A DNA stretch of 64,000 bases, taken from Streptomyces sp. NBC_00510. GTDB taxonomy: Bacteria > Actinomycetota > Actinomycetes > Streptomycetales > Streptomycetaceae. Each line of letters begins with the position of its first letter. Positions within the stretch are counted from its first letter, which is position 1. Positions 24,995 to 32,484 of the stretch are shown here, piece after piece. Made by a program: the position numbers and the translations under genes. The stretch spans positions 3,038,001 to 3,102,000 of the forward strand of contig CP107851.1 of assembly GCA_036013505.1 (NCBI GenBank). Direction: 5' to 3'. Below the pieces are notes generated by a model that saw only the letters and a program-made list of their open reading frames with translations, was not told where the DNA came from and searched no databases.

Positions 24995-27775
<2,781 letters not shown>

Positions 27776-27835: not shown

Positions 27836-27853
27836 TATCTCGATGTCGAGATA
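27836..27853. promoter_or_regulatory. 18-bp MarR/TamR-type palindrome upstream of acnA
   Basis: TATCTCGATGTCGAGATA is an inverted repeat with eight-base arms around a TG centre. MarR proteins of the UrtR branch bind 18-bp palindromes of this style, and TamR of S. coelicolor is reported to control the aconitase gene. No tamR is seen in this window. Assignment by motif shape and precedent. Confidence 0.5.
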
Positions 27854-28940: not shown

Positions 28941-30430
28941 GTGCATGAGGACTTCGAGCGCTGTGTGCGCGCCGTGCAGTCGAAGGACTCCCGTTTCGAC
29001 GGGTGGTTCTTCACCGCGGTGCTGACCACCCGCATCTACTGCCGGCCCGGCTGCCCCGCGGTGCCGCCGAAGCCGCAGAACATGACCTTCTACCCGAGCG
29101 CGGCCGCCGCCCAGCAGGCCGGGTTCCGCGCCTGCAAGCGCTGCCGCCCCGACGCCGCCCCGGTTCCCCGCGGTGGAACGAGCGGGCGGACCTGGTGGCC
29201 CGCGCCATGCGCCTGATCGCGGACGGGGTCGTCGACCGGGACGGCGTACCCGGGCTCGCGGCACGTCTCGGCTACAGCACCCGGCAGGTGGAGCGGCAAC
29301 TGCGGGCCGAACTCGGGGCCGGGCCGCTCGCCCTCGCCCGTGCGCAGCGGGCGCAGACGGCCCGCCTGCTGGTCGAGACCTCGGCGCTGCCCATGGCCGA
29401 CGTCGCCTTCGCCGCCGGGTTCAGCAGCATCCGCACCTTCAACGACACCGTGCGCGAGGTCTTCGCGCTCACCCCGACCGAGCTGCGGACGCGGGCGGCA
29501 CGGGGGCGGCACTCCGCCCCCGCCGCCGACGTGGCGGGCTCGCTGGCGCTGCGGCTGCCCTTCCGGGCACCGCTGTGCCCCGGCAACCTCTTCGGGCACC
29601 TGGCCGCGACCGCCGTGCCGGGCGTGGAGGAGTGGCGGGAGGGTGCGTACCGCCGCACACTGCGGCTGCCCCACGGCCACGGGATCGTGGCCCTGCGGCC
29701 CGAGCCCGACCACGTCGCCTGCCGGCTCTCCCTCACCGACTGGCGGGACCTGTCGCACGCGATCAGCCGCTGCCGGTGGCTGCTCGACCTGGACGCCGAC
29801 CCGGTCGCCGTCGACGGGCTGCTCCGGGAGGACCCGCTGCTCGCCCCGTACGTGGACAAGGACCCCGGGCGCCGGGTACCGCGCACGGTGGACGGGCCGG
29901 AGTTCGCGGTGCGCGTGGTGCTCGGGCAGCAGGTGTCGACCGCCGCGGCGCGCACGCTGGCCGGCAGGCTGGTGACGGCGCACGGCGAGCCCGTCGCCGA
30001 CCCCGGGGGCGGGCTGACCCACCTGTTCCCCTCGCCGTGGGCGCTGACGGCCCTGGACCCGGGGTCCCTGGCGATGCCGGGCACCCGGCGGGCCACGCTG
30101 ACCTCCCTGGTGGCCGCGCTCACCGAGGGGGGCCTGGACCTGGACGTCGGCAGCGACTGGGAGAAGGCCCGGCGGCAGCTCGCCGCGCTGCCGGGCTTCG
30201 GCCCGTGGTCGGTCGAGGTGGTCGCGATGCGGGCGCTCGGCGACCCGGACGCCTTCCCCGCCACCGATTTGGGCGTACGGTCGGCCGCGGAAAAACTGGG
30301 CCTCCCCACGACCCCCGCGGCCCTCGTCCGGCGGGCCGCGGCCTGGCGGCCGTGGCGCGCGTACGCCGTGCAGCACCTGTGGGCCACCGGCGACCACCCC
30401 GTCAACGTCCTGCCCGCCGACCCGGCCTGA
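28941..30430 (+). pseudogene. Ada/AlkA fusion (methylphosphotriester sensor - AraC HTH - 3-methyladenine glycosylase) with an apparent frameshift
   Basis: The product would repair alkylated DNA and regulate itself. In one frame, residues from VHEDFERCVRAVQSKD carry the Ada N-terminal zinc/methyl-acceptor motif (YCRPGCPAV... and ACKRCRPD: four Cys). The AraC helix-turn-helix (LAARLGYSTRQVERQLR, then MADVAFAAGFSSIRTFN) and the AlkA glycosylase with its helix-hairpin-helix LPGFGPWSVEV and catalytic Asp in PATDLGV are in another frame. The switch falls at about 29160-29163: family proteins read PGSPRWN there, which needs one extra G in CCCCGGTTCC. Either a real one-base loss or a sequence error; the first frame stops at 29216. 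GTG 28941 has GGGGG upstream; ATG 28929 is an alternative. Confidence 0.75.
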
Positions 30431-30439
30431 GGAATGATC

Positions 30440-30940
30440 ATGTCCCCTCGCACACACGCCCTGATCGACAGCCCCGTCGGGCCGCTGACCCTGGTCGCGA
30501 CCGACGGCGTCCTGTCCGGTCTCTACATGCCCGCGCAGCGTCACCGGCCGCCGGAGGAGTCCTTCGGCGCGCGCCGCGACCCGGCGACGTCGCCGTTCAC
30601 TCGGGCCGCCGAGCAGCTGCGGGCGTACTTCACGGGTGAGTTGACCGCCTTCGACCTGCCGCTCGACCTGCGCGGCACCCCCTTCCAGCAGCGTGTCTGG
30701 GCGGGTCTGCGGGCCATCCCGTACGGCACCGTGATGACGTACGGTCAGCTGGCGGAGGAGCTCGGCAGCCCCGGCGCGTCGCGCGCCGTCGGGCTCGCCA
30801 ATGGACGCAACCCGGTCGGCATCATCGTGCCCTGCCACCGTGTGGTCGGGGCCTCCGGCAGCCTCACCGGATACGGGGGCGGACTGGAGCGCAAGCGGTA
30901 CCTGCTGGACCTGGAGCTCGGGTTGCCATCTCATATGTGA
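30440..30940 (+). CDS. ogt: Methylated-DNA--protein-cysteine methyltransferase (Ogt)
   Basis: A suicide repair protein moving the alkyl group from O6-methylguanine to its own cysteine. The 166-residue protein has the DNA-binding helix-turn-helix segment RVWAGLRAIPYGTVMTYGQLAEELGSPGASRAVG and the active site IIVPCHRVVG (Cys ~131), followed by GSLTGYGGGLERKRYLL. ATG 30440 was chosen over 30434 because GAGG then has seven bases of spacing. It starts nine bases after the ada-alkA stop, so it should be in the same alkylation-response transcript. Its last codons overlap the operator-like palindrome of the next gene. Confidence 0.95.
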   Translation: MSPRTHALIDSPVGPLTLVATDGVLSGLYMPAQRHRPPEESFGARRDPATSPFTRAAEQLRAYFTGELTAFDLPLDLRGTPFQQRVWAGLRAIPYGTVMTYGQLAEELGSPGASRAVGLANGRNPVGIIVPCHRVVGASGSLTGYGGGLERKRYLLDLELGLPSHM

Positions 30941-30943
30941 GAT
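30928..30943. promoter_or_regulatory. Palindromic operator candidate of the XRE-MurA gene
   Basis: ATCTCA-TATG-TGAGAT (six-base arms) covers the ogt stop codon and ends at a -10-like TAGTCT (30943-30948). That -10 lies six bases before the ATG at 30955, so the gene may be leaderless and the palindrome sits in its core promoter. The downstream protein carries its own XRE DNA-binding domain, which makes autoregulation plausible. Confidence 0.5.
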
Positions 30944-30954
30944 AGTCTCTCCGC

Positions 30955-32484
30955 ATGGGAGACGACTACCTCGCACGCATCGGCAAGCTCATCCGTGACG
31001 CCCGCCAGCACCGGGGCTGGACTCAGTCCCAACTGGCGGAGGCACTCGGGACCAGCCAGAGCGCGGTGAACCGTATTGAACGCGGGAACCAGAACATCAG
31101 CCTTGAGATGATCGCCCGAATCGGTGAAGCGCTCGACAGCGAGATCGTCTCCCTCGGCTACGCGGGTCCCATGCATCTGCGTGTCGTGGGCGGGCGCCGG
31201 CTCTCCGGCTCCATCGACGTCAAGACCAGCAAGAACGCGTGCGTGGCGCTGCTGTGCGCCACGCTGCTGAACTCCGGGCGGACCACCCTGCGCCGCGTCG
31301 CGCGGATCGAGGAGGTCTACCGCATCCTGGAGGTGCTGAACAGCATCGGCGTGCGGACCCGCTGGATCAACGACGGCAACGACCTGGAGATCGTCCCGCC
31401 CGCCCGGCTGGAGCTGGACGCCATGGACACCGACGCCGCCCGCCGCACCCGCAGCGTGATCATGTTCCTCGGCCCCCTGATGCACCGCACCGACCGCTTC
31501 CGCATCCCGTACGCGGGCGGCTGCGACCTCGGCACCCGTACCGTCCAGCCGCACATGACCGCCCTGCGGCACTTCGGGCTGGAGGTGACCGCCACCAGCG
31601 GGATGTACCACGCCCGGGTCGCCCCCTCGGTGGCCCCGCGGCGGCCGATCGTGCTGACCGAGCGCGGCGACACCGTGACCGAGAACGCGCTCCTGGCGGC
31701 CGCCCGGCACGACGGGGTGACCGTCATCCGCAACGCCAGCTCGAACTACATGGTCCAGGACCTGTGCTTCTTCCTGGAGGAGCTGGGCGTCCGGGTGGAC
31801 GGCATCGGCACCACCACGCTGACCGTGCACGGTGTCACCGACATCGACCGGGACGTGGACTACGCGCCCTCCGAGGACCCGGTGGAGGCCATGAGCCTGC
31901 TGGCCGCGGCCGTGGTCACCGAGTCCGAGCTGACCATCCGGCGGGTGCCGGTGGAGTTCCTGGAGATCGAGCTGGCGGTCCTGGAGGAGATGGGCCTGGA
32001 CCACGAGCGCTCGGCCGAGTACCCCGCCGACAACGGCCGCACCCGGCTGATCGACCTCACCGTGCGCCCCTCCAAGCTGCGCTCCCCCATCGACAAGATC
32101 CACCCCATGCCCTTCCCGGGCCTCAACATCGACAACGTGCCCTTCTTCGCGGCCATCGCCGCCACGGCCCAGGGCTCGACCCTCATCCACGACTGGGTCT
32201 ACGACAACCGCGCCATCTACCTCACCGAGCTGACCCGGCTCGGCGCCAACGTCAAGCTGCTGGACCCGCACCGGGTGCTGGTCGAGGGCCCGACCCGCTG
32301 GCGCAGCGCCGAGATGATGTGCCCGCCGGCCCTGCGGCCCGCCGTGGTGACCCTGCTGGCGATGCTCGCCGCCGAGGGCACCTCGGTGCTGCGGAACGTG
32401 TACGTCATCAACCGCGGCTACGAGGAGCTGGCCGAGCGGCTCAACTCCATCGGGGCGCAGATCGAGACGTTCCGCGACATCTGA
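30955..32484 (+). CDS. XRE-type DNA-binding domain fused to a MurA-like enolpyruvyl transferase
   Basis: A 509-residue fusion. Residues ~7-62 are a Cro/C1-type helix-turn-helix (IRDARQHRGWTQSQLAEALGTSQSAVNRIERG). From ~75 an EPSP-synthase fold begins (RVVGGRRLSGSIDVKTSKNA), as in UDP-GlcNAc 1-carboxyvinyltransferase. The MurA loop cysteine is kept in AGGCDLGTRTV, and KNA for substrate binding is kept, so catalysis is possible. A canonical MurA is ~420-450 residues without HTH. S. coelicolor has a similar second MurA in this position next to aconitase. Function could be cell-wall precursor synthesis, a metabolite-sensing repressor, or both. ATG 30955 lacks an SD and may be leaderless. Confidence 0.88.
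   Translation: MGDDYLARIGKLIRDARQHRGWTQSQLAEALGTSQSAVNRIERGNQNISLEMIARIGEALDSEIVSLGYAGPMHLRVVGGRRLSGSIDVKTSKNACVALLCATLLNSGRTTLRRVARIEEVYRILEVLNSIGVRTRWINDGNDLEIVPPARLELDAMDTDAARRTRSVIMFLGPLMHRTDRFRIPYAGGCDLGTRTVQPHMTALRHFGLEVTATSGMYHARVAPSVAPRRPIVLTERGDTVTENALLAAARHDGVTVIRNASSNYMVQDLCFFLEELGVRVDGIGTTTLTVHGVTDIDRDVDYAPSEDPVEAMSLLAAAVVTESELTIRRVPVEFLEIELAVLEEMGLDHERSAEYPADNGRTRLIDLTVRPSKLRSPIDKIHPMPFPGLNIDNVPFFAAIAATAQGSTLIHDWVYDNRAIYLTELTRLGANVKLLDPHRVLVEGPTRWRSAEMMCPPALRPAVVTLLAMLAAEGTSVLRNVYVINRGYEELAERLNSIGAQIETFRDI

Follow-up and report, generated by a model that had tools for sequence, protein, structure and literature searches.

A MurA-type enolpyruvyl transferase fused to an XRE domain as a probable repressor of its own leaderless promoter in actinobacteria

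Background

Peptidoglycan synthesis begins with MurA, the target of fosfomycin, and what is known of how cells adjust its amount concerns mostly proteolysis and feedback inhibition. Some active enzymes carry DNA-binding domains and repress transcription, often that of their own gene; such trigger enzymes include PutA, BirA and NadR, and to our knowledge none has been described for the reaction that opens peptidoglycan synthesis. HipB-type XRE antitoxins and C proteins, too, bind palindromes that cover their own promoters. HipB, C.AhdI and C.BclI are among the matches of the helix-turn-helix (HTH) domain of the protein described here, hereafter XRE-MurA, and the Y4mF antitoxin family is among the models; these antitoxins and C proteins are, however, small and without an enzyme domain, and XRE-MurA involves no toxin.

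The nearest precedent for the fusion of an XRE domain to an enzyme is BzdR of Azoarcus, which is reported to have an XRE-type domain joined to an enzyme-derived domain, to have lost the enzyme activity and to control benzoate degradation genes (PMC3602430). XRE-MurA shares this arrangement and, unlike BzdR, has an intact active site and a putative operator at its own gene. Membership of the BzdR family was considered and rejected, as the model PRK08154 matches only residues 3-66, i.e. the HTH, and the shikimate-kinase-like C-terminal domain that defines such proteins was not found.

In the literature, the second MurA of Streptomyces (SCO5998 in S. coelicolor, MurA2 in S. venezuelae) figures as a cell-wall gene controlled by BldM-WhiI, SigB or DmdR1. 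SCO5998 is described as MurA2, one of two UDP-GlcNAc transferase genes (PMC12161575), and is reported to have a SigB-dependent promoter (PMC8346170), while overexpression of murA2 did not mimic overexpression of whiI (PMC11005364). We infer that SCO5998 and sven5810 (vnz_28735) are very probably orthologues of XRE-MurA. Among the best matches in the open-licence literature searched, no description of a DNA-binding role for MurA or MurA2 was found.

Results and discussion

Organisation of the locus

The features below lie in the window, i.e. the whole stretch of 64,000 nucleotides of the Streptomyces sp. NBC_00510 genome that was analysed.

30434 to 30940, plus strand: ogt-like gene 5' of XRE-MurA (PF01035 and PF02870 matches)
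30927 to 30944, no strand assigned: putative operator O1, CATCTCATATGTGAGATA (consensus TATCTCATATnTGAGATA), kept in 223 of 233 orthologous loci
30943 to 30948, plus strand: -10 box TAGTCT (TANNNT), with TANNNT in 216 of 223 loci
30955 to 30957, plus strand: ATG start, with a predicted transcription start at or beside it (leaderless)
30955 to 32484, plus strand: XRE-MurA gene, 509 amino acids, ATG start
30979 to 31152, plus strand: XRE helix-turn-helix domain, residues 9-66 (HTH_3, 56.9 bits against a cut-off of 23)
31057 to 31080, plus strand: predicted recognition helix, residues 35-42 (AlphaFold model), with putative specificity residues 36 and 39
31094 to 31109, no strand assigned: operator-like site O2 in the HTH coding sequence, ACATCAGCCTTGAGAT (10/12), with the rare CTT codon 50
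31174 to 32481, plus strand: MurA-type enolpyruvyl transferase domain, residues 74-509 (catalytic positions, structure match)

The fusion of an XRE HTH to a MurA-like transferase, proposed in the initial annotation, was borne out by domain searches, in which HTH_3 matched residues 13-64 above its gathering score (E = 2.1e-15) and EPSP_synthase (PF00275) matched as a full-length domain at residues 79-496 (E = 1.3e-45, 156.3 bits). The loop cysteine said to be retained in AGGCDLGTRTV is indeed present, as C190 (codon 31522-31524). The open frame 5' of the ATG extends for three codons only, so a much longer XRE-MurA start is excluded. In the NBC_00510 genome, the final codons and stop of the ogt-like gene lie within O1, and no intrinsic terminator (a GC-rich stem followed by a T run) was found for this gene in 30700-31200. 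A canonical MurA (L002), 33% identical to XRE-MurA, is encoded elsewhere in the 10.15-Mb genome.

Distribution of XRE-MurA

XRE-MurA is present in all genomes of family f1 in the order sample (197 genomes), in 114 of the 394 genomes of the class sample, spread over 26 of 138 genera, and in 6 of the 149 genomes of the phylum sample, all of them belonging to the same class as NBC_00510. A scan of viral contigs found no relatives. For comparison of the loci, 128 from the order and class searches were combined with 105 from family f35, giving 233, of which 110 belong to f35, 54 to f1, 36 to f28, 20 to f21, 4 to f19 and 9 to seven other families. Family f1 appears to be the Streptomycetaceae, while f35 seems to include Janibacter and Humibacillus, f28 Aeromicrobium and f46 Brachybacterium. 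Left out of this set were L142, from the same genome as L121, and G640 and G662 (contig edge, split gene).

A leaderless promoter joined to a conserved palindrome

The palindrome ATCTCATATGTGAGAT occupies exactly 30928-30943. It had originally been described as lying across the promoter, and the core holds as claimed; the element is, however, 18 bp long (consensus TATCTCAN4TGAGATA, with C at position 1 in the window), and rather than spanning the promoter it sits directly upstream of the -10 box and is joined to it, the last TA of O1 being the first TA of TAGTCT. The ATG follows after 6 nt and no Shine-Dalgarno (SD) sequence is visible, in line with the first description, and the comparison between genomes upholds the suggestion of a leaderless promoter. 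Among the 223 loci with O1, the first in-frame start lies 6-8 nt after the -10 box in 215; none has an SD-like pentamer at a distance of 4-15 nt ahead of the start, and 4 have one anywhere within the 15 nt preceding it. Because of the conserved TANNNT, this spacing and the near absence of SD-like sequences, a leaderless start of XRE-MurA appears well supported.

A scan with the sigma-70 consensus found no -35/-10 pair at XRE-MurA. The SigB promoter reported for SCO5998 (PMC8346170) matches sequences that lie 334-368 nt ahead of the start in three relatives; it is a distal promoter, beside which the leaderless one may work.

An O1 that agrees with TATCTCAN4TGAGATA at 11 or more of 14 positions is found in 223 of the 233 orthologous loci, and the whole 12-base core is exact in 93; the 10 loci from which a good O1 is missing are all from f35. 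The alignment of the loci contains information only at the operator, the T of TANNNT and the start codon, every other position having less than 0.4 bits, and the flanks of O1 diverge among the 223 loci that bear it.

Exact copies of the operator lie mostly at XRE-MurA

With up to two mismatches, ATCTCAN4TGAGAT occurs three times in the window against an expectation of 0.32. The genome search for this pattern proposed in the initial annotation found the exact sequence at one place in the 10.15 Mb. With up to three mismatches, the 18-mer matches 20 places in the same genome, as opposed to 7 for the reversed control, and the best of the other sites (27836-27853) is itself within the window. Among 296 genomes of the class, the exact 18-mer is present in 18, once in each and by coordinates always just upstream of XRE-MurA, with none for the reversed control among the matches listed; this exact search misses sites that are one base off, such as the O1 of the window. 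Of 101 family genomes, 74 have the exact 16-mer, mostly at a single place among the matches listed, and 27 are without it. Twenty of the listed 16-mer stretches were taken, of which 18 hold XRE-MurA and two (L369 and L377, in genomes G689 and G665) have the matching palindrome at other genes. These distributions suggest that the O1-type operator has mostly one target, the promoter of XRE-MurA itself.

The recognition helix and the operator vary together

Where the recognition helix is intact, O1 is present at 223 loci and absent or weak at 3; where the helix is eroded or missing, O1 is present at none and absent at 7 (Fisher p = 2e-11, relatedness ignored). The latter seven comprise L121, L130, L143 and L144 from one genus, L197 and L202 from another, and L246, in which the HTH has been deleted, the enzyme domain retained and O1 is absent. 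The exceptions are L208 and L214, which have an intact helix without O1, and L237, whose intact helix is accompanied by a weak O1 (10/14). Four HTH-loss changes are seen on a quick MurA-domain tree, from which L131 was left out as too short, and O1 was lost in all three of the independent pairs on supported branches (sign test, p = 0.25).

Changes in the sequence of the operator can also be related to the protein. In the set of 219 loci used for this purpose (L129, L131, L245 and L247 not being part of it), a symmetric change of operator T3 to A in both halves accompanies Gly36 in 16 of 16 cases and Ser36 in 3 of 203. Ranking all 509 positions by their mutual information with the operator change places residue 39 highest at 0.33 bits and residue 36 next at 0.32, with 0.16 for the position that follows, and the same two residues lead when f35 is considered alone. 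Both fall inside the predicted recognition helix, residues 35-42. The tree has 8 changes of Gly36 and 8 of the AA operator, and among five supported pairs three agree, none disagree and two do not differ (sign test, p = 0.25). As the Fisher p-values ignore relatedness and the tree-aware pairs are too few for significance, the ranking of residues is the stronger argument that the HTH reads the operator. The XRE domain thus very probably reads the conserved O1 palindrome at its own promoter, and control of its own gene by the enzyme is accordingly very probable.

The transferase domain is that of a divergent MurA

XRE-MurA is 27% identical to E. coli MurA over the aligned positions. The equivalents of K22, N23, R91, C115, R120, D305, R331, R371 and R397, the catalytic residues of the E. 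coli enzyme, are invariant in 125 of 125 orthologues (a count that excludes the split genes L129-L131, and for which the row L359, a wrong-frame ORF, was ignored). Differences are found at P121, D123, K160 and S162-G164, the UDP-contact residues of E. coli MurA, where the replacements in the UDP loop (P121T, K160E, S162G, V163D and G164T in E. coli numbering) are invariant, position 123 being the one exception. The canonical MurA of the NBC_00510 genome likewise has another residue in place of K160. Because the score of 311.7 bits against the equivalog model TIGR01072 is below its cut-off of 392.7 while that of the MurA subfamily model NF006873 is reached (328 vs 297), XRE-MurA is best labelled, on these profile scores, a divergent MurA-type subfamily. 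The AlphaFold model, built from 38 aligned sequences, has a mean pLDDT of 87.1, with low confidence at the linker of residues 64-70. Its best Foldseek matches are MurA structures with a target TM-score of about 0.9, including MurA with UDP-GlcNAc and MurA with UDP-MurNAc and a PEP adduct. XRE-MurA is like E. coli MurA in its fold, full length and nine catalytic positions, including Cys115, and differs from it in the added XRE domain, the low identity and the replaced residues of the UDP loop.

No MurA-type gene besides XRE-MurA was found in 70 of the 100 XRE-MurA genomes searched outside the Streptomycetaceae. In a search of 61 such genomes outside f1 with TIGR01072 at E <= 1e-20, in which G273 was treated as having one split gene, 40 (33 of f28, 5 of f35 and 2 of f44) were without another MurA-type gene and the other 21 also had a canonical MurA. 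In 39 further f35 genomes, a canonical MurA scored above the cut-off in 9 and none did so in 30, the remaining hits at E <= 1e-10 being weak (at most 58 bits) and probably AroA-like. By comparison, all nine f1 genomes searched have both XRE-MurA and a canonical MurA. Lineages in which the HTH is eroded or deleted (G445, G568, G603, G617, G637 and G643) also have XRE-MurA as the sole MurA-type gene found. This sole-MurA status, which extends to lineages without the HTH, argues that XRE-MurA is very probably the essential MurA where no other is found. An altered acceptor substrate, suggested by the replacements in the UDP loop, was considered and is unlikely given this finding.

A candidate second operator within the coding sequence

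A further site, O2, lies 166 bp from O1 in the window and is marked by codon usage. In f1 and f19, 56 of 57 genes use CTT for Leu50, although CTT makes up 1.3% of the leucine codons in the MurA part of the loci, and the resulting bias of 7.3 bits compares with 2.5 at the next highest of 413 positions and a mean of 0.24. The CTT completes TGAGAT, the same half-site as in O1. Across all families, the place of O2 is 166-168 bp from O1 in 164 loci, a distance of about 16 helical turns. Among 18 further XRE-MurA loci, which were partly picked because of their paired 16-mer sites, 9 have a perfect ATCTCAN4TGAGAT, with a rare AAT codon as well, exactly 167 bp from O1, while O2 is absent in L370 and weak in L371. 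Families f35, f28 and f21 do not show this codon signal.

We therefore regard O2 as a candidate operator and a novel intragenic second site. That the CTT signal instead reflects translation, through pausing or mRNA structure, is an unlikely explanation: codon 50 is near the start of the gene and the serine codons 34, 36, 49 and 62 are also unusual, but CTT completes the same half-site as in O1, and the whole site is perfect at the fixed distance in half of the further loci, even if these were partly chosen for the pair. In the Streptomycetaceae, the mostly weaker O2 some 167 bp downstream probably helps O1, and would do so by looping or as a roadblock.

Autoregulation and its alternatives

A conserved cognate operator at its own promoter is what would be expected of an autoregulatory DNA-binding enzyme, and is what was found. 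On the basis of these comparisons, autoregulation through O1 is very likely, and control is likely to take the form of repression. In the proposed mechanism, the N-terminal XRE domain would bind the O1 palindrome, presumably as a dimer, and the bound protein would keep RNA polymerase off the adjoining leaderless -10 box, such that the amount of enzyme feeds back negatively on its own synthesis. The sole-MurA status and the invariant catalytic positions together make a working enzyme that represses its own gene very likely, and there is a high probability that XRE-MurA is a bifunctional autoregulator of this kind, acting via O1. The original suggestion of a moonlighting enzyme that represses its own synthesis is strongly supported as regards autoregulation, O1 being kept, lost with the helix and co-varying with it, but 'moonlighting' understates the role of a protein that is the sole MurA in so many genomes.

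Activation, instead of repression, by XRE-MurA bound directly 5' of the -10 box would fit the lack of a -35 in the consensus scan, and activators that bind the spacer exist, as in the MerR family; nevertheless XRE proteins at such promoter sites are usually repressors, O1 shares two bases with the -10 box, self-activation of an essential gene would be prone to instability, and the lineages with an eroded or absent HTH retain XRE-MurA as the sole MurA-type gene found, all of which makes activation very unlikely. The idea that the transferase domain has become a dead or repurposed sensor and is no enzyme draws on the replaced UDP-loop residues and is the least credible of the alternatives, being at odds with the nine unchanged catalytic positions, with the many genomes in which no other MurA-type gene was found and with the lineage that shed its HTH yet kept the enzyme domain. 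There is likewise only a slight chance that the palindrome is read by another factor (BldM-WhiI, DmdR1 or one not yet described) and that the HTH acts elsewhere. BldM-WhiI is reported to footprint the S. venezuelae murA2 promoter (sven5810) (PMC4125116), and the interval from SCO5998 to SCO5999 has a predicted DmdR1 site (PMC12161575). However, the published Group II motif, TGnnCCGnnCGGGTGA, is unlike O1 (PMC4125116). Of 54 f1 loci, 29 have a Group II-like site 27-33 nt further upstream than O1; the window has none, its best upstream match having 4 mismatches. O1 is kept in f21, f28 and f35, in which the Group II motif is at the level of shuffled sequence, and loss of the HTH is accompanied by loss of O1, whose sequence varies along with the recognition helix. 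BldM-WhiI was rejected as the reader of O1, the Group II motif fitting a separate, phased upstream site.

Plain autorepression by XRE-MurA requires no ligand, but could be refined by one, and the sensing of UDP-GlcNAc or PEP proposed in the initial annotation is a hypothesis of this kind. It is plausible, though we would not count on it, that UDP-GlcNAc, PEP or the feedback inhibitor UDP-MurNAc closes the MurA domain and thereby switches DNA binding, in which case transcription would follow precursor levels beyond the amount of protein; this would be a refinement of control through O1 and no alternative to it. A full conserved active site is fused to the HTH, ligand-bound MurA structures (with UDP-GlcNAc, and with UDP-MurNAc and the PEP adduct) are among the structural matches, and the shikimate-kinase-like domain of BzdR is reported to bind its effector (PMC3602430). 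Against this, the low-confidence linker at residues 64-70 of the model makes mechanical coupling less than evident. Speculatively, MurA bound to substrate or UDP-MurNAc might have an altered affinity for DNA. The most elaborate form of the idea, in which MurA is a sensor of peptidoglycan precursors whose ligand switches the XRE domain, acting in Streptomycetaceae through an O1-O2 repression loop and with no other regulator, is doubtful; if it were true, the first committed step of cell-wall synthesis would set its own expression without another regulator.

DNA-binding enzymes are themselves already known, and what appears to be new is a variant sited at the entry to peptidoglycan synthesis. 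Actinobacterial families appear to have built transcriptional feedback into MurA itself, including in species where it is the sole MurA, and the HTH that the second Streptomyces MurA carries can be given a possible molecular role. As the circuit would comprise one protein and one operator, its binding, its specificity, which concerns residues 36 and 39 and operator base 3, and its sensing of metabolites are directly testable.

Predicted operator sites within and around XRE-MurA

A rare CTT at codon 50, in the HTH coding sequence of XRE-MurA, creates a second operator-like site (O2, window 31094-31109), which comparison of XRE-MurA loci found to be kept in families f1, read as Streptomycetaceae, and f19. 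Genome G726 carries two copies of the gene (L362 and L363), each with a perfect O2 and a perfect O1, the predicted operator at the -10 box. Frameshifts split the gene in three genomes (L129, L130 and L131); as the split gene of L130 is the sole MurA-type gene found in its genome, G273, a sequencing error is likely there.

In 29 of the 54 f1 loci, a phased site resembling the published BldM-WhiI motif lies 27-33 nt 5' of O1; this site is absent from the window. Judged from sequence, the putative site is a developmental layer added in Streptomyces.

Neighbouring genes and other palindromes

The window's O1 contains the stop codon of the upstream ogt, part of an alkylation-repair pair immediately 5' of XRE-MurA. 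This pair and two further palindromes are listed here.

Window 29003-30940: tandem arrangement of ogt with an AraC-AlkA fusion gene (gene calls and domain matches)
L369 (genome G689) 575-590: operator-like palindrome between genes other than XRE-MurA
Window 27836-27853: palindrome TATCTCGATGTCGAGATA, upstream of the aconitase-like gene 24995-27709 (-)

The L369 palindrome may be an extra target or a chance match. The likeness of TATCTCGATGTCGAGATA is not to O1 but to a MarR/TamR-type site; its neighbour is presumably aconitase-like, judging by the gene's sequence.
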